Assembly (NCBI RefSeq): GCF_005280655.1 | Contig: NZ_CP040058.1 | Span: 1,588,001-1,652,000 of the forward strand | From: Anaerostipes rhamnosivorans | Lineage (GTDB): Bacteria; Bacillota; Clostridia; Lachnospirales; Lachnospiraceae | Length of the DNA: 64,000 nt | Reading direction: 5' to 3' | Shown here: piece by piece, positions 17,288 to 23,893 of the stretch | How the letters are laid out: every line of letters starts with the position of its first letter | Numbering within the stretch: the stretch's first letter is position 1 | Notes under the pieces: generated by a model | The model's database searches: none | What the model was told of the DNA's origin: nothing | The model's input: the letters and a program-made list of their open reading frames with translations, nothing else | Program-made: the position numbers and the translations under genes

Positions 17288-18970
17288 ATGTTACAGAGTC
17301 TGCATGTTAAAAATTTAGCTTTAATTGATGAGATAGAGATTCATTTTGATGAGCATTTAAATATTCTGACCGGTGAGACAGGTGCGGGGAAGTCCATTAT
17401 CATCGGCTCTATTGAGAGCGCTCTTGGGAAGAAGGTTTCCAGGGATATGATCAGGCCTGGGGAAAAAGAGGCCCTGATCGAACTCTTATTCTATACAGAG
17501 GATGATGATATCCTCAGGGATCTAAAAGAGAAAGATCTGCCTGCAGAAGACGGCATGATCCTGATCAAAAGGGTGATCTCAGAAAAACGCAGCGTCAACC
17601 GTATCAACGACTGTATGGTCACATTGAAAACACTTCAGGAGGTTTCAGAAAGGCTCATGAACCTTCACGGACAGCAGGAGCACCAGACACTTTTAAATGA
17701 AAAAAATCACAAATCGATTTTAGACCATTTTTTAAGCCAAAATGGGAAACAATATGTAAAAGATACAAAAACGTCTTTTGGACACCTTCAGAAGCTTCAG
17801 AAGCGCAAGAGTGAGTTTGCGGTAGATGAAGCCCAGAGACTCCGGGAGATGAGCTTTTTAAACCATGAGATTCAGGAAATTGAGGATGCGCATCTCGTTA
17901 AAAATGAAGATGAAGCTCTGGATGAGCACTATCAGAGGATGGTACACAGCCAGGAGATCATGGAAGGCATGAAAAGTGCTTATGAGTGTACTGGGAATGA
18001 AACAGAAGTGTCGGTGGGAACGCTGCTCTCCACAGCCTTAAAGGACCTTCAGGGTATTGTGAATCTGGATCCGGCACTTGGAGATTCCTATGAACAGCTT
18101 CTTCAGGCGGAAGACATCATCAATGGATTTAACCAGCAGGTTTCAGAATATATGTCATCCATGGAATTTGATGCCGAAGAGTTTGCCCGCACAGAGGAGA
18201 GGCTTAACCTGGTCAACAGCCTGAAGGACAAGTACGGCAGGACCATTGAGGATGTGTTAAGCTACCAGTATAAGGCTCAGGAGAAGCTTTTAACTTACGA
18301 ACATTACGAGGAGGAAAAGGAGCTGCTCCTGAAACAGATCGCCCAGGCAGAAAAGGAGTTTTATGAAAAGGCCGGAAAACTGTCAAAAGAGCGCAGAAAG
18401 GCCGCAAAGATTTTGGAACAGCAGATTTTTAAGGCTCTCTCAGATCTCAATTTTCTCTCTGTTAAGTTCCAGATCAAGGTTTCACCTTCTGAGACGGCCA
18501 ATGCTGACGGAGTAGATCAGGTAACTTTTTTGATCTCTACCAATCCGGGCCTTCCGGTGCGGCCTATGGCAGAAGTGGCATCCGGAGGTGAACTCTCTAG
18601 GATCATGCTGGCTGTCAAATCCGTTCTTGCGGATGTGGATCAGGTGGGAACGTTGATTTTTGACGAAATCGACACGGGGATCAGCGGAGAGACGGCAAAT
18701 AAGGTTGCCAGGAAGATGGCAGTCATTGCGAAGGACCATCAGGTATTAGCCATTACCCATCTGCCGCAGATTGCGGCCATGGCAGACGCTCACTATTATA
18801 TTGAGAAGTATGCCGATAAAACAAAGACCACCACCACCATACAAAGACTTTCCGAAGAGGATTCCCTGAGGGAATTAGGACGGATGATCAACGGCGATGA
18901 TCTCACGGAAGCCGTTTTAAAAAACTCAAAAGAAATGAAAAGTTTAGCAAATGACGCAAAATTATACTGA
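17288..18970 (+). CDS. recN: DNA repair protein RecN
   Basis: 560-residue SMC-like ATPase acting early in double-strand break repair. Walker A TGETGAGKSIII is near residue 35, followed by long coiled-coil arms (about 150-370), the ABC signature ASGGELSRIMLAVK and Walker B LIFDEIDTGISGE. Normal length. No LexA-type box seen; it appears cotranscribed from upstream. Confidence 0.96.
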   Translation: MLQSLHVKNLALIDEIEIHFDEHLNILTGETGAGKSIIIGSIESALGKKVSRDMIRPGEKEALIELLFYTEDDDILRDLKEKDLPAEDGMILIKRVISEKRSVNRINDCMVTLKTLQEVSERLMNLHGQQEHQTLLNEKNHKSILDHFLSQNGKQYVKDTKTSFGHLQKLQKRKSEFAVDEAQRLREMSFLNHEIQEIEDAHLVKNEDEALDEHYQRMVHSQEIMEGMKSAYECTGNETEVSVGTLLSTALKDLQGIVNLDPALGDSYEQLLQAEDIINGFNQQVSEYMSSMEFDAEEFARTEERLNLVNSLKDKYGRTIEDVLSYQYKAQEKLLTYEHYEEEKELLLKQIAQAEKEFYEKAGKLSKERRKAAKILEQQIFKALSDLNFLSVKFQIKVSPSETANADGVDQVTFLISTNPGLPVRPMAEVASGGELSRIMLAVKSVLADVDQVGTLIFDEIDTGISGETANKVARKMAVIAKDHQVLAITHLPQIAAMADAHYYIEKYADKTKTTTTIQRLSEEDSLRELGRMINGDDLTEAVLKNSKEMKSLANDAKLY

Positions 18971-18997
18971 GTGCTTTTCTTAGGTTTCAGACATAAT

Positions 18998-19036
18998 AAA
19001 AAGGATGTATCGCATAAAAGCATACGTCCTTTTTTA
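18998..19036 (+). terminator. terminator after recN
   Basis: AAAAAGGATGTAT (18998-19010) pairs with ATACGTCCTTTTT (19022-19034, one G-U pair) around the loop CGCATAAAAGC, ending in a T run. Confidence 0.85.
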
Positions 19037-19071
19037 AATCATTTATGATTTAATCTGTTTAGGAGGAAACC

Positions 19072-20289
19072 ATGAGAAAATACTACTACCGCAAACTTCT
19101 CATTGCTCTGTTTGTCATAAACATCGTAGGAATCTGTGCCGTTTATTTCAAATACTGCAGAAATGTACTGCCCAATGCCATTGAGCTGACCATGGGAGAA
19201 AAAGCATGTCTAAAGTATGACGTGCCGGCGGTTGGGATGGTCAAGGATCAAAAGATCAAGCTAAACCAACCGTTTGTTCTGACGAAGGACTCCGTTGGAC
19301 AGGATGAGATCAAAGCAAAGCTGTTTGGAACCATTCCGTTAAAAGACATTAAGGTGAATGTTGTCAAACAAAAAACACTGGTGCCCAGCGGAAAGATCGT
19401 AGGTATCTATGTGGAGACAAATGGGATCCTTGTATTGGAAACAGATATGATCACAGGCGTAGACGGAGGCAACCATACTCCGAGCGCAAATAAGCTGTAT
19501 CAAGGTGATTATATTCTGTCAGTCAATGGATCAAAGGTTGAGACAAAGGTTGATTTTATGAAAAAAATCAATGAATGTAATGGTAAGGAAGTCACTCTGC
19601 AAGTGATCCGAAACCATAAAAAAACCAAGATCAAGGTGCAGCCTGTCCAGTCTGTCACCGACAGTCAATATAAGATCGGAGCCTGGGTCAGGGATAACAC
19701 CCAGGGGATCGGAACTATGACCTACGTGGCAGGAAATGAGTTTGGAGGCCTGGGGCACGGGATCTGCGACATGGACACCGGAAAACTGATGGATATCAAA
19801 GGCGGATACCTGCTCACTCCGCAGATCGATACGATCCAGAAGGGAAAATCCGGCTCCCCGGGAGAGATTGTCGGAAGCATTTATTACAAGGAGGCGAACC
19901 TGCTGGGAACGATCCGCAAAAATACCAAATATGGAATTTACGGAACTACCCAGTCGGATAAAAAAGACAAAGCCTACCGTATCGGTTATAAGCAGTCAGT
20001 AAAGACTGGAAAAGCGCAGATCATAAGCTGTATCAGCGGTAAGAGGGAGACCTATGATATTGAGATCAAAAGTGTGGATCAATCCAACCATGATGTACTA
20101 AAGGGGATGGAGATTGAGATTACAGATCCAAAGCTGTTAAAACAGACCAATGGTATCGTTCAAGGTATGAGCGGAACTCCTATCATTCAGAACAACCACA
20201 TTATAGGTGCTGTGACCCATGTCTTTGTGGACGATTCGACAAAAGGGTACGCAACCTTTATTGAAAATATGCTAAATTCCTCTAAATAA
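19072..20289 (+). CDS. spoIVB: SpoIVB serine peptidase
   Basis: 405-residue S55-family protease secreted from the forespore to signal pro-sigma-K processing. Residues 9-28 form the membrane anchor; a PDZ domain spans about 105-190; the peptidase domain contains the catalytic His in GLGHGICDMDTG and the Ser in QGMSGTPIIQ. GGAGGAAA precedes the ATG. It lies between recN and spo0A as in Bacillus. Confidence 0.95.
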   Translation: MRKYYYRKLLIALFVINIVGICAVYFKYCRNVLPNAIELTMGEKACLKYDVPAVGMVKDQKIKLNQPFVLTKDSVGQDEIKAKLFGTIPLKDIKVNVVKQKTLVPSGKIVGIYVETNGILVLETDMITGVDGGNHTPSANKLYQGDYILSVNGSKVETKVDFMKKINECNGKEVTLQVIRNHKKTKIKVQPVQSVTDSQYKIGAWVRDNTQGIGTMTYVAGNEFGGLGHGICDMDTGKLMDIKGGYLLTPQIDTIQKGKSGSPGEIVGSIYYKEANLLGTIRKNTKYGIYGTTQSDKKDKAYRIGYKQSVKTGKAQIISCISGKRETYDIEIKSVDQSNHDVLKGMEIEITDPKLLKQTNGIVQGMSGTPIIQNNHIIGAVTHVFVDDSTKGYATFIENMLNSSK

Positions 20290-20357
20290 GATGATTTTGT
20301 TGTTATTTACAAAGAACTTGCGAAGGATAAGGGGTGTTTGTAAAGTTTGCAAAAATA

Positions 20358-20363
20358 TATAAT
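20358..20363 (+). promoter_or_regulatory. possible -10 element of spo0A
   Basis: TATAAT at 20358-20363, 37 bases before the spo0A start codon. No good -35 at normal spacing and no clear sigma-H site were found; the AT-richness makes a chance match possible. Confidence 0.25.
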
Positions 20364-20399
20364 TATATTGTAAATAAAAACAGAATCGGAGGACTTAAC

Positions 20400-21218
20400 A
20401 TGAGCAAAATTAATGTGGCAATCGCGGATGATAATCAGAAAATGGTCAGTATGATGACTCAGCTTTTAAACTTAGATCAGGATATCGAGGTCATCGGAAG
20501 TGCAGGCAACGGTGAAGCAGCCGTGGAGATTATCAAAGAGAAAAAGCCGGACGTTGTTCTTCTGGACATTATCATGCCGAAGCTTGACGGAATTGGGGTA
20601 TTGGAAAAGCTTCGTGATGAGCGACTGGAAAAACAGCCGACGGTGATTATGGTGACTGCCATGGGACAGGAGAGTGTTGCCGAGGAAGCAATGGAGCTGG
20701 GAGCATCTTACTTTATCTTGAAACCATTTGATTCGGAAATGGTAATCCGAAAAATAAAACAAGCAAAATTAGACAAAAAAGTACAGAAGCCTTTTGTCGC
20801 ATTAAAGAACCAGGAAGGGCTAAATAAAAACCAGCTGGAAATCATTATCACAAATATTATCCATGAAATAGGTGTGCCGGCTCATATTAAGGGCTACCAA
20901 TATTTAAGAGATTCCATTATGCTGGCCATCTACGACATGGATATTCTAAACTCAATAACCAAACAACTATATCCAACAATAGCGAAACAGTTTGGTACTA
21001 CATCTAGTAGAGTGGAAAGAGCAATCCGCCACGCTATTGAGGTGGCCTGGGGCCGTGGAAAAATGGATACGATCGATGCTTTGTTTGGATATACGGTTCA
21101 TGCGGGAAAAGGGAAACCGACAAATTCAGAATTTATTGCACTGATTGCTGATAAAATCAGACTTGAGTATGGAGATCGAATCGTGTCGCAAAAAATGTCT
21201 GAAAATGATGGAAGATAG
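20400..21218 (+). CDS. spo0A: sporulation master regulator Spo0A
   Basis: 272-residue response regulator that switches on sporulation when phosphorylated. The receiver has the full set: acidic pocket Asp10-Asp11, phosphoacceptor Asp56 in LLDIIMP, the Thr of VTAMG and the Lys of LKPFD. The C-terminal effector domain carries the recognition helix [20 protein letters not shown]. The frame extends upstream to 20334, but CGGAGGA (20387-20393) fixes the ATG at 20400. A shorter paralogue follows directly. Confidence 0.97.
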
Positions 21219-21239
21219 TAAATATTGTTTGATTATGCG

Positions 21240-21269
21240 ATTGACAAAGGGGAATATGCTTGATATATT
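21240..21269 (+). promoter_or_regulatory. strong promoter of the Spo0A paralogue, overlapping a 0A-box-like site
   Basis: A perfect -35 TTGACA (21241-21246), 17-base spacer and extended -10 TGA-TATATT (21261-21269). The -35 lies inside ATTGACAAA (21240-21248), which matches the reverse 0A-box consensus TTYGACAAA at 8 of 9 positions. Control by Spo0A is an inference; part of the match is forced by the -35 itself. Confidence 0.6.
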
Positions 21270-21311
21270 TCTCTCTTAGAATGGTTAGATTTGGATGGAG
21301 GGGTATACATA

Positions 21312-22118
21312 ATGTATGATAAACGGAAAATTTTGATAGCTGTCAGCAGTCAAAATGAGGCTAAGGAACTTTGCAGAGAAATGGAAAATGAAATGCAGGT
21401 AGTGGGAGTTGCCTATGACGGTGCCTCCGCAGTTAAGCTAATTAAGGAACAAGAGCCTGATGTAGTAGTGATTGATATCGTCCTCCCGGTTTTAGATGGA
21501 CTGGGTGTGATTGAACAGTGCAACGGTACCATAGCCGATGACAAAATACCTTCTTTTATTGCAATAACCTCCATAGGAAACCAGAGACTGATCGAATGTA
21601 TCAGCCTTATGGGTGTAGACTACTGCATGATGAAGCCGTTTCATACAAATGTGTTAATTGACAGGATCAATCAAATGATGAGAATGAAAAGGGTGAACAA
21701 CAATTACCCAAAGACATTTGAGGTAAAAAGTGAACCCGCTCAAAAGACGTTTACGGAATATGATATTCAAAAAGATGTGACAAAGATCATCAGGGATCTT
21801 GGGATTCCTGCACATATAAAAGGCTATCAATATATCAGGGAAGGCATCATAATGGCGATCCATGATGTTAACATGATGAATTACATAACAAAACTATTAT
21901 ACCCAACCATAGCTCAAAAATATAAAACAACTTCCAGCAGTGTGGAAAGAGCCATCCGCCATGCCATCGAAGTGGCTTGGAGCAGAGGAAAGATCGAACT
22001 GCTGGAAGAAATGTTTGGATATACGATCAGTGCCGGCAAAGGAAAGCCGACAAATTCTGAATTCATAGCACTCATTGCGGATAAACTCAGACTGGAATAT
22101 CATATGAATGCCTCTTGA
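21312..22118 (+). CDS. Spo0A paralogue with degenerate receiver acidic pocket
   Basis: 268 residues, collinear with Spo0A over its whole length. The C-terminal DNA-binding half is very similar (shared [13 protein letters not shown] and [17 protein letters not shown]). The receiver keeps phosphoacceptor Asp55 (VIDIVLP), the Thr (AITSIG) and the Lys (MMKPF), but the Mg-binding pair is Ser12-Ser13 instead of Asp-Asp, so normal phosphorylation is doubtful. In the recognition helix SRVER has become SSVER. GGAGGGG precedes ATG 21312. It probably arose by tandem duplication and may compete with, or modulate, Spo0A at 0A boxes. Confidence 0.9.
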
Positions 22119-22128
22119 TTCAGTAGAA

Positions 22129-22152
22129 AACCGCCAGAATGCTATTTCGGTT
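22129..22152 (-). terminator. possible terminator of rqcH
   Basis: Read on the - strand, AACCG and CGGTT with an inner ATTC/AAAT pairing form a hairpin followed by TTTTC. It lies between the convergent spo0A paralogue and rqcH. Weak. Confidence 0.35.
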
Positions 22153-23893
22153 ACAATTCTTTGATGCCTGAAATATCAGGAATGCACATCATTGAATAAT
22201 TAGTATGGTAAATGACAAATCCAGGCTTTGCTTTCGGCGGTTTTTTTAATTCTTTTCTCTGGATATAATCAATTTCCACTTTTGGAGCCTGACGGCCGCT
22301 GGAATAAAAAGCGGCAAGCCGGCCGGCTTCTTCAAAAGTAGCATCCGGCAGAGTATCCGCCTGTTCCTTTTTGACTATGACGTGTGATCCTGGCATATTT
22401 TTTGCATGGAACCACCAGTCTCCTCCGTTAGCAAACTTAAAGGTCAATTCATCGTTTTGATAATTATTTTTGCCTACGTACATATGAAAGCCGTCAGAAG
22501 ATACAAAGTGGAGAGGTTTCGATTTGGCTGGTTTTTTTACCCCTTTTGAACCCCGTTTTTTCAAGTAGCCGTAATCTGAGAGTTCCTGCTTGATGGATGC
22601 AAGATCCTGTTCATTCTCTGCAAGGGTAAGAGAAGACGCAATCGATTCCAGATGCATCAAGTCATCCTTTGTCTCCACTGTAAGCTCGGAGAGAGCCTCA
22701 AAGGTCCTTTTCAGTTTGTTATATTTGGTAAAGTATTTCTGTGCATTCTCCTGAGGAGTTTTCGCAGGATCAAGAGGGATCGTGATTTCCTCGTTGGTGT
22801 AATAGTTCAGGCACGTGAGGGATTTGGATTCAGGCTCAAGCCCGTATCCATATGCCTGGATCAATTCTCCATATATTTTGTATTTATCTCTTTTTTCTGT
22901 ATCGAGAAGCTGTTTTCTCTGCAGATCATATTTCTTGCTCGTACGTTCCATAGAAGTCTGGACGATTTTTCTCAGATCCGCAGACTTCTGTTTCATTCTT
23001 GTATACTTTTCTTTTTCTGAATAATAGCTGACTAAAACATCGCTAATGGAAGGAAATATCTTCACGTCATAAGATGTCTCATAGGATGTCATAGGAAAAC
23101 AGGAAAATTCTTTTGGTTCTCCATTCTGATAAATAATATTTGGCACATATTCGTGCTTTTCCACAGCAAGAGCCAGTTTCTTAAGCTGAGCGTAAAGGTC
23201 AGAGCACTGATCTTGTGTCAGAGCATCTGTGGGCTGGTTTCCGTCCACTCCGGCGCGGTAACAGATCTCGTTTGCCAAAAATGAACTCATGCCTGTGATG
23301 GAAGAATAAAGAGCCTTCCCCATGGACACCGGTTTTGGTTTGATATCGCTGAGGAAATCCTCCAGAGTCAGAGACTCAATATCCTTTTTATGCTGCGTTG
23401 GAGGAGTACAGTACTCCATTCCCGGCAGAACTTCCCGCTTGGAACTCATATTGGCCCCCACGTGCCGGATGCTGTCTAGGATCATTCCGTCCTGTCCTAC
23501 AAAGATTAAATTGCTGTGTTTGCCCATCAATTCAATGATCAATTTTTTTCGACATACATCGCCTAGTTCATCCAGATGTTCCACGGTGATCTCAATGATC
23601 CGCTCATAGCCCGGCTGTTCTACAGAAATGATCCGGCCATTGCTCAGATGCTTTCTCAAAAGCATACAGAAATTGGGGGCCTGGATGGGATTTTGTTTGC
23701 CCTGTCCTGACAGATACACGATCGGCAGGCTGGGACTAGCGGAGAGATGTAGCCTTAAAGTCTCACGGTTCTGTTTGATCACAAGGGTGATCTCATCAGC
23801 CTCAGGCTGGTATATCTTATAGATTCTTCCGTTTAAAATCTTTTCGTTTAATTCATTTACAATATTTGAAATGACAAATCCGTCAAATGCCAT
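22151..23893 (-). CDS. rqcH: RqcH/NFACT-family ribosome quality control protein
   Basis: 580 residues. NFACT-N lies at 1-135, helical coiled arms at about 250-430 and the NFACT-R domain at about 440-550 (GGDWWFHAKNMPGSHVIVK). RqcH binds split 50S subunits and adds C-terminal alanine tails to stalled peptides; older annotations call it fibronectin-binding protein. Residues 97-98 are Glu-Arg where the family reference has Asp-Arg (DR motif), a conservative change at a functional site. GGAGG stands 7 bases before the ATG. The gene is divergent from the PH-domain gene. Confidence 0.93.
   Translation of the reverse strand: MAFDGFVISNIVNELNEKILNGRIYKIYQPEADEITLVIKQNRETLRLHLSASPSLPIVYLSGQGKQNPIQAPNFCMLLRKHLSNGRIISVEQPGYERIIEITVEHLDELGDVCRKKLIIELMGKHSNLIFVGQDGMILDSIRHVGANMSSKREVLPGMEYCTPPTQHKKDIESLTLEDFLSDIKPKPVSMGKALYSSITGMSSFLANEICYRAGVDGNQPTDALTQDQCSDLYAQLKKLALAVEKHEYVPNIIYQNGEPKEFSCFPMTSYETSYDVKIFPSISDVLVSYYSEKEKYTRMKQKSADLRKIVQTSMERTSKKYDLQRKQLLDTEKRDKYKIYGELIQAYGYGLEPESKSLTCLNYYTNEEITIPLDPAKTPQENAQKYFTKYNKLKRTFEALSELTVETKDDLMHLESIASSLTLAENEQDLASIKQELSDYGYLKKRGSKGVKKPAKSKPLHFVSSDGFHMYVGKNNYQNDELTFKFANGGDWWFHAKNMPGSHVIVKKEQADTLPDATFEEAGRLAAFYSSGRQAPKVEIDYIQRKELKKPPKAKPGFVIYHTNYSMMCIPDISGIKEL

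Follow-up and report, generated by a model that had tools for sequence, protein, structure and literature searches.

The window analysed here, a stretch of 64,000 nucleotides from Anaerostipes rhamnosivorans, carries two spo0A-like genes in direct succession. The first, spo0A itself (positions 20400 to 21218, forward strand), was recognized by family and domain searches and by alignment and encodes a canonical protein of 272 amino acids, with Asp10, Asp11, Asp56, Thr and Lys in the receiver and Arg in the recognition helix. Ahead of it, the list of open reading frames places a gene at 19072 to 20289 on the same strand, which from the usual position before spo0A we take to be spoIVB-like. Behind spo0A, across a gap of 93 bp, lies the subject of this study, a complete gene on the same strand that encodes 268 amino acids (21312 to 22118). 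Its ATG is preceded by a ribosome-binding-site-like GGAGGGG (21297 to 21303, read from the sequence), upstream of which a promoter scan found a sigma-A-like promoter, TTGACA-17-TATATT (21241 to 21269), both on the forward strand. A convergent gene on the reverse strand (22151 to 23893, from the same list), whose product presumably resembles an NFACT/RqcH protein, bounds the locus downstream.

An earlier reading made from the DNA letters alone (the sequence-only reading) had called the second gene a full-length Spo0A-like gene placed right after spo0A, and both the open reading frame and the family searches confirm this. The paralogue scored 149 bits against Pfam Spo0A_C (cut-off 25), 49.2 bits against Pfam Response_reg (cut-off 30.2) and 288.8 bits against TIGR02875 spore_0_A (cut-off 200), the last marking it as a full-length member of the Spo0A family; spo0A itself reached 359.7 bits against TIGR02875, and both copies exceed the cut-offs of the full-length model and of both Pfam domains. 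The two proteins are identical at 48% of 240 aligned columns, and the AlphaFold model of the paralogue has a mean pLDDT of 83.

Closer comparison located the differences. An ungapped alignment sets KILIAVSSQ of the paralogue opposite NVAIADDNQ of spo0A: Val11-Ser12 (codons at 21342 to 21347) substitute for the metal-binding Asp10-Asp11, and Ser13 faces Asn12. The sequence-only reading, which had Asp10-Asp11 replaced by Ser12-Ser13, was right that the acidic pair is gone and one residue off in the pairing. It had also seen the phosphoacceptor Asp, the Thr and the Lys as retained, and they are, as Asp55 (21474 to 21476), Thr86 and Lys108 (21633 to 21635). Taking a complete receiver pocket as two acids, Asp, Thr/Ser and Lys, the paralogue reads VSDTK and lacks the complete pocket of Spo0A. 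In the DNA-binding domain, Ser210 (21939 to 21941) aligns with Arg211 of the Spo0A recognition helix (B. subtilis numbering), the single Arg-to-Ser change that had been spotted before, and Arg161 (21792 to 21794) and Tyr191 (21882 to 21884) correspond to His162 and Ser/Ala192 of Spo0A, respectively.

To place the paralogue, 189 distinct Spo0A-like sequences were assembled, comprising 127 with Arg211, 61 with Ser211 and one with Cys211. With columns 162, 188, 192 and 211 removed, 60 of the 62 non-Arg211 sequences still formed one clade, hereafter the S clade; S-types are thus defined by the tree and R-types by their Arg211 residue. In the same set, the 44 R-types that sit beside an S-type also form one clade (support 99). 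A quick IQ-TREE tree of 121 rows (55 S-types, 41 partnered R-types and 25 of the 73 other R-types drawn at random) recovered the S group as one clade (95) as well as the partnered R group (98), as did FastTree on 169 rows (99 and 98); long branches occur on several rows of these trees and of the 189-sequence tree. The S-types remained one group in trees of the receiver alone (92) and the DNA-binding domain alone (77), and the partnered R group required two changes in the receiver-only tree. Judged by eye, the subgroups of the partnered R-types parallel those of the S clade. The paralogue therefore belongs to one old family of Spo0A paralogues in Lachnospiraceae. The simplest history for these trees would be a single old duplication whose tandem product was inherited vertically in one branch, with a dispersed S branch that may reflect an early split or transfer.

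Within the genus Anaerostipes, the paralogue was present in 10 of the 11 genomes searched, the other nine copies at 64 to 97% identity, and spo0A adjoins it in all ten, although a contig end cuts that spo0A in two of them (G009 and G010). The remaining genome, the draft G004, has no match to spo0A, the paralogue or the spoIVB-like gene, and does contain spoIVA. We considered G004 as a natural loss of the pair and dropped it, the spoIVB-like gene being absent too and a draft gap explaining this as readily as a deletion. Beyond the genus, we used N-[YF]-ITKLLYP as a DNA signature of the paralogue, a strict one that misses some S-clade members. Among 396 Lachnospiraceae genomes that are at least 90% complete, 15 had it, representing 11 of 280 genera, and among 392 genomes sampled across the class the window's own was the single one with it; the 374 class genomes sampled from other families gave no match. 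Eighteen further genomes had two Spo0A matches, and six of them hold S-clade members missed by the signature, five lying within the 396. An S-clade member is thus carried by at least 20 of the 396 Lachnospiraceae genomes, which makes the paralogue a minority feature of the family.

Gene order is fixed in adjacent pairs. Of the 60 S-clade sequences, 45 share a locus with an R-type and 44 stand directly behind a full-length one, always downstream and on the same strand; the difference is one S-type that is third in a row in G005. Counted as combinations, the 44 R and 44 S sequences form 45 pairs. Three further S-types (L010, L100 and L106) follow an R-type that is incomplete and lies at a contig end, and the remaining 12 have no adjacent R-type in view, some being extra copies and some dispersed. 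The dispersed S-types of G202, G434 and G021 (the Cys variant) have an R-type elsewhere in the genome, outside the partner clade. Since such a dispersed subfamily exists, adjacency is not obligatory. As to extra copies, G005 has three Spo0A-like genes in a row (L014) and G008 has an additional dispersed S-type (L016), and both of these fall together in the tree, on long branches.

Is this second gene still under selection? Between the window's genome and its relative G003, the paralogue has a dN of 0.013 and a dS of 0.85 (dN/dS 0.015), close to the 0.012 of spo0A, and its DNA-binding domain shows zero amino acid changes at a dS of 0.72. Across S-types, whole-gene dN/dS was 0.015 to 0.038 in the six comparisons that could be computed (three more were saturated), and receiver dN/dS was 0.018 to 0.055 in seven comparisons. 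In alignments of 52 S and 111 R sequences, the DNA-binding domain is as conserved in S-types as in Spo0A (column entropy 0.53 versus 0.55 bits), and the receiver is looser (1.97 versus 1.74 bits). That the S receiver changes faster than that of Spo0A is what a decaying, functionless duplicate would show, yet purifying selection of this strength means that the paralogue is not decaying, and its presence in ten genus genomes and, by the strict signature, in 11 genera of the family also speaks against such a duplicate. Decay is excluded, and a duplicate without function is hardly credible. The first of the two observations that the sequence-only reading had named as fatal to its view, a decaying copy confined to a single strain, was not made, and the adjacent pairs it had suggested looking for across Lachnospiraceae do exist.

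The same reading had described the receiver pocket as dismantled, and the clade bears this out. Both acids are present in 0/60 S-clade sequences, compared with 80/83 R-types without an adjacent partner and 18/44 R-types with one; likewise, the complete pocket is found in 0/60 S-types versus 80/83 unpartnered R-types. Loss is concentrated on the second acid (position 11), which is acidic in a single S-clade sequence, and the first (position 10) is lost in 11/60. What is conserved, then, is the lost second Asp together with Ser at the Arg211 position; the Ser-Ser pair itself, whose conservation among relatives had been put forward as a check, is ruled out as a signature, occurring at columns 11 and 12 in only three of 60 sequences, each closely related to the window's genome.

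This pattern resembles that of bacterial pseudo-receivers, which lack pocket residues and lose the second acid more often than the first. Passages of a review of such proteins describe the second acid as binding the metal directly and give it as non-acidic in about 80% of pseudo-receivers, the first in about 20% (PMC12632262). With a Response_reg domain scoring above its cut-off and the second metal-holding acid gone in 59/60, the S-clade receiver matches the published description, and on sequence grounds the S clade is in agreement with the reported rates of loss. It differs from aspartate-less receivers (PMC4395418) in that the window copy keeps Asp55 and the clade keeps the phosphoacceptor Asp in 55/60.

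Such retention could mean that the S-type is a second Spo0A that can still be phosphorylated, with weaker metal binding, the first acid, Asp56, Thr/Ser and Lys being enough. Besides Asp56, the clade indeed keeps Lys108 in 54/60 sequences and an acidic residue at position 10 in 49/60, and among the database proteins listed as matches, five of the 110 Ser211 proteins with both pocket columns filled have both acids. This is nonetheless very improbable, considering that 59 of 60 S-types have lost the second acid, that the phosphoacceptor is Glu (two) or Asn (three) in 5/60, and that the window copy has lost both acids. In the receiver, Tyr104, Lys108, Pro109, Arg118 and Gln121 are 90 to 98% conserved in the S clade.

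The five proteins combining Ser211 with an intact acid pair (P0032, P0075, P0096, P0107 and P0120) include metagenome sequences. Of the 120 database proteins among the matches listed, 112 have Ser211 and eight Arg211, and seven of these eight join an S-like pocket to the Arg211-type domain (P0006, P0049, P0060, P0063, P0065, P0074 and P0085). Such mixed signatures may be chimeras of tandem neighbours, produced by assembly or by real recombination.

The DNA-binding domain tells of change at a few positions within a conserved frame. Arg211 is retained in 0/60 S-clade sequences, with Ser in 59 and Cys in one; Ser/Ala192 is replaced by Tyr (54) or Phe (6) in all 60; and His162, present in 126/127 R-types, has become Arg in 51/60. 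Glu213, Arg214 and Arg217 are retained in 60/60. According to passages of PMC3485338, Spo0A contacts G2, C4 and G5 of the 0A box TGTCGAA. Parts of PMC9195935 report that Paenibacillus polymyxa SC2, with Spo0A R211H plus a change in DegU, forms no endospores, and that H162R is a suppressor of A257V in B. subtilis Spo0A.

One explanation for such clade-wide changes is that the S-type reads a changed DNA site and commands a small regulon of its own, independent of Spo0A. The dispersed S-types that exist without an adjacent spo0A would fit, as would two second Spo0A copies outside the S clade, L287 (G179) and L299 (G076), that carry Ser211 with acid pair and pocket intact; this gain suggests that DNA reading has been a repeated target of change. 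We consider a separate regulon unlikely, however, given that 44 of the 60 S-types have stayed directly behind spo0A and that no alternative box was found before spoIIE or spoIIGA in 30 genomes. TGTCGAA-like boxes were present there both in the 19 genomes with an adjacent pair and in the 11 without one, some of the matches overlapping a -35-like TTGACA, and no clear altered or mixed 0A box was seen before spoIIE or spoIIGA in the 19 pair genomes. No feature told the two sets apart, although for spoIIGA the comparison has little power, 17 of the 30 upstream stretches being shorter than 380 bases.

Several other proteins with a Spo0A_C domain came to light in these searches. The window's genome encodes a stand-alone, receiver-less Spo0A_C protein with Ser at the Arg211 position (G000:C1:2851958-2852290; L003, L032; frame of 166 amino acids), to which the frames L030 and L031 are similar, and a 77-amino-acid frame whose weak Spo0A_C match still exceeds the cut-off (G000:C1:1686720-1686911; L004). 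In five genomes (G194, G283, G096, G218 and G032), the best Spo0A match is itself receiver-less (L292 to L296): in open frames of 181 to 215 amino acids, a vestige of the receiver's first part precedes a complete Arg211-type DNA-binding domain, and each genome has a second short copy as well. Relatives of these proteins are named in Acetatifactor and Lachnospiraceae.

How the second gene is expressed bears on whether it might oppose Spo0A. The promoter in the window matches the consensus at 11 of 12 positions. Scanning 18900 to 22400 gave 11 sites versus 8.8 +/- 3.1 in shuffled sequence, so promoter-like sites in general are no commoner there than by chance; for the spacer plus the last 30 bases of spo0A, none of 200 letter shuffles reached 11/12. 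The same promoter recurs in G003, G006 and G010, and the gaps of G001, G002, G005, G007 and G008 have no site of 10/12 or better. Among 42 distinct pairs, whose gaps range from 9 to 172 bp (median 97.5, with five of only 9 to 41 bp; apparent negative gaps at four loci are open frames running into the neighbouring gene), 21 have an intergenic promoter of at least 10/12. The strong vegetative-type promoter claimed by the sequence-only reading is present in the window, therefore, without being a general property of the pairs; co-transcription and separate promoters probably both occur. A perfect TGTCGAA lies in nine of the 42 gaps, all in pairs with an upstream Spo0A devoid of the acid pair, and starts 28 to 52 bases before the -35 element in eight pairs and inside the promoter spacer in one.

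An S-type could also act as a competitor, occupying the same 0A boxes or forming inactive dimers with Spo0A and so delaying sporulation until Spo0A~P is high. The strong sigma-A-like promoters of the window and of several lineages fit vegetative expression, and in the passages on P. polymyxa SC2 the replacement of Arg211 by His coincided with loss of sporulation, the DegU change being present as well (PMC9195935). A threshold-setter of this kind is unlikely in our view: a mere DNA-titrating decoy needs no replacement of one and the same residue by Ser in 59/60 proteins, and half of the pairs have no separate promoter, so that both proteins would be made together.

In some pairs the upstream protein, too, is altered. 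Of the 45 adjacent pairs, 43 were classed, and in 25, some of them from closely related genomes, neither protein has a complete five-residue pocket. From the upstream Spo0A of 23 of these 25 the second acid is missing, and 17 have Lys-His for Asp-Asp there, none of the 17 keeping Lys108; Lys-His or Asn-His replaces Asp-Asp in L042, L046, L076, L104 to L146 and others, and in G198 and G431 the upstream R-type with this replacement also has Asn for the phosphoacceptor Asp56. Reciprocal retention of the pocket within pairs, with a better-preserved S-type beside a degenerate Spo0A, was suggested by eye and then dropped (19/25 versus 10/18, Fisher p = 0.20, ignoring kinship between genomes and omitting two pairs in which the R receiver is truncated or misaligned).

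Sporulation genes accompany these pairs. The spoIVA gene was found in all six pocket-less-pair genomes examined (G050, G080, G427, G116, G389 and G141); overall, 20 of 21 S-type genomes covered by the search have it. Five of those six were also searched for spoIIE and spoIIGA, and all had matches to both; across the 30 genomes, the best matches passed the curated cut-offs for spoIIE in five and for spoIIGA in none, alike with and without the pair and including the genus. Even so, both strains of Anaerostipes caccae tested in PMC12888040 formed spores in vitro. In seven Anaerostipes genomes, the spoIIE frames (L236 and L239 to L244) are 470 to 520 amino acids long and cover the model in its later part only; the lengths are 767 to 791 in five genomes that have no adjacent pair and 791 to 800 in G172 and G419; some other pair-less genomes are short too. 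If the species with pocket-less pairs sporulate, they have lost or replaced the phosphorylation input. It is conceivable, if rather unlikely, that one branch of the Lachnospiraceae starts sporulation through a complex of two Spo0A proteins instead of by phosphorylating a single one.

The reading we favour, as a serious possibility that falls a little short of probable, is that the S-type is a phosphorylation-independent partner that joins Spo0A~P on 0A-box DNA. As a standing partner that needs no phosphorylation itself, it would occupy 0A boxes jointly with Spo0A~P, either in heterodimers or by mixed tandem occupancy, and would rely on Spo0A for its placement because of the altered contact at position 211. 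Such a partner could shift which promoters are bound, or the level of Spo0A~P needed for a response. We prefer this because of the adjacency of 44/60 S-types, the fixed order, the single clade, the parallel R and S subgroups and the purifying selection, together with a conserved DNA-binding domain that has lost Arg211 and kept Glu213, Arg214 and Arg217, the loss of the second acid, the conserved receiver residues from Tyr104 to Gln121 and the reported H162R suppressor. Against a partner of Spo0A~P weigh the lack of a clear altered or mixed box before spoIIE and spoIIGA, the dispersed S-types and the five Ser211 proteins that have the acid pair; reciprocal pocket retention, which this reading would like to see, was not significant.

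Compared with Spo0A as known from B. subtilis, C. difficile and others (TIGR02875), the S-type has the same receiver and Spo0A_C domains, a family score above the cut-off and Glu213, Arg214 and Arg217; it differs in lacking the acidic pair, in having Arg211 replaced by Ser, Ser192 by Tyr and His162 mostly by Arg, and in always coming second where the two genes adjoin. A precedent for partnership is offered by BldM and WhiI, whose DNA-binding domain is of a class other than that of Spo0A and which are not known to be a tandem duplication. Both are atypical developmental response regulators of Streptomyces, one being the partner of the other: according to passages of PMC4125116, an atypical regulator, which has no action by itself, controls later promoters as part of a heterodimer. 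That heterodimer was demonstrated experimentally (PMC4125116), and the one between S-type and Spo0A is inferred; the S-type would extend the control exerted by spo0A much as WhiI does for BldM. Clostridium thermocellum, in the account given in part of PMC4890492, likewise has a second full-length Spo0A homologue, Clo1313_0637, of unknown role, beside the one required for sporulation; their locus tags are far apart, so these two genes are not adjacent.

In the portion of the open-licence literature covered, we came across no account of a family like the S clade, with pseudo-receiver Spo0A proteins encoded in tandem with Spo0A. Spo0A does not occur in the main text of the pseudo-receiver review (PMC12632262), and the passages covered of PMC12888040, a paper with a Spo0A tree of Anaerostipes genomes, make no mention of two copies. 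Spo0A is treated as the one marker of spore formation and as its master switch. Because both copies score above the cut-off of one and the same family model, surveys of spo0A presence and absence are blind to the difference. Our results suggest that spore formation in Anaerostipes and some relatives is run by a pair of regulators, not by one. As a natural series of variants, the pairs offer a means of probing the purpose of Spo0A phosphorylation. Spore formation governs the spread of gut commensals between hosts, and a conserved second Spo0A whose receiver is disabled, together with lineages in which neither copy has the pocket, would imply that for part of the gut spore formers the textbook phosphorylation model fails.
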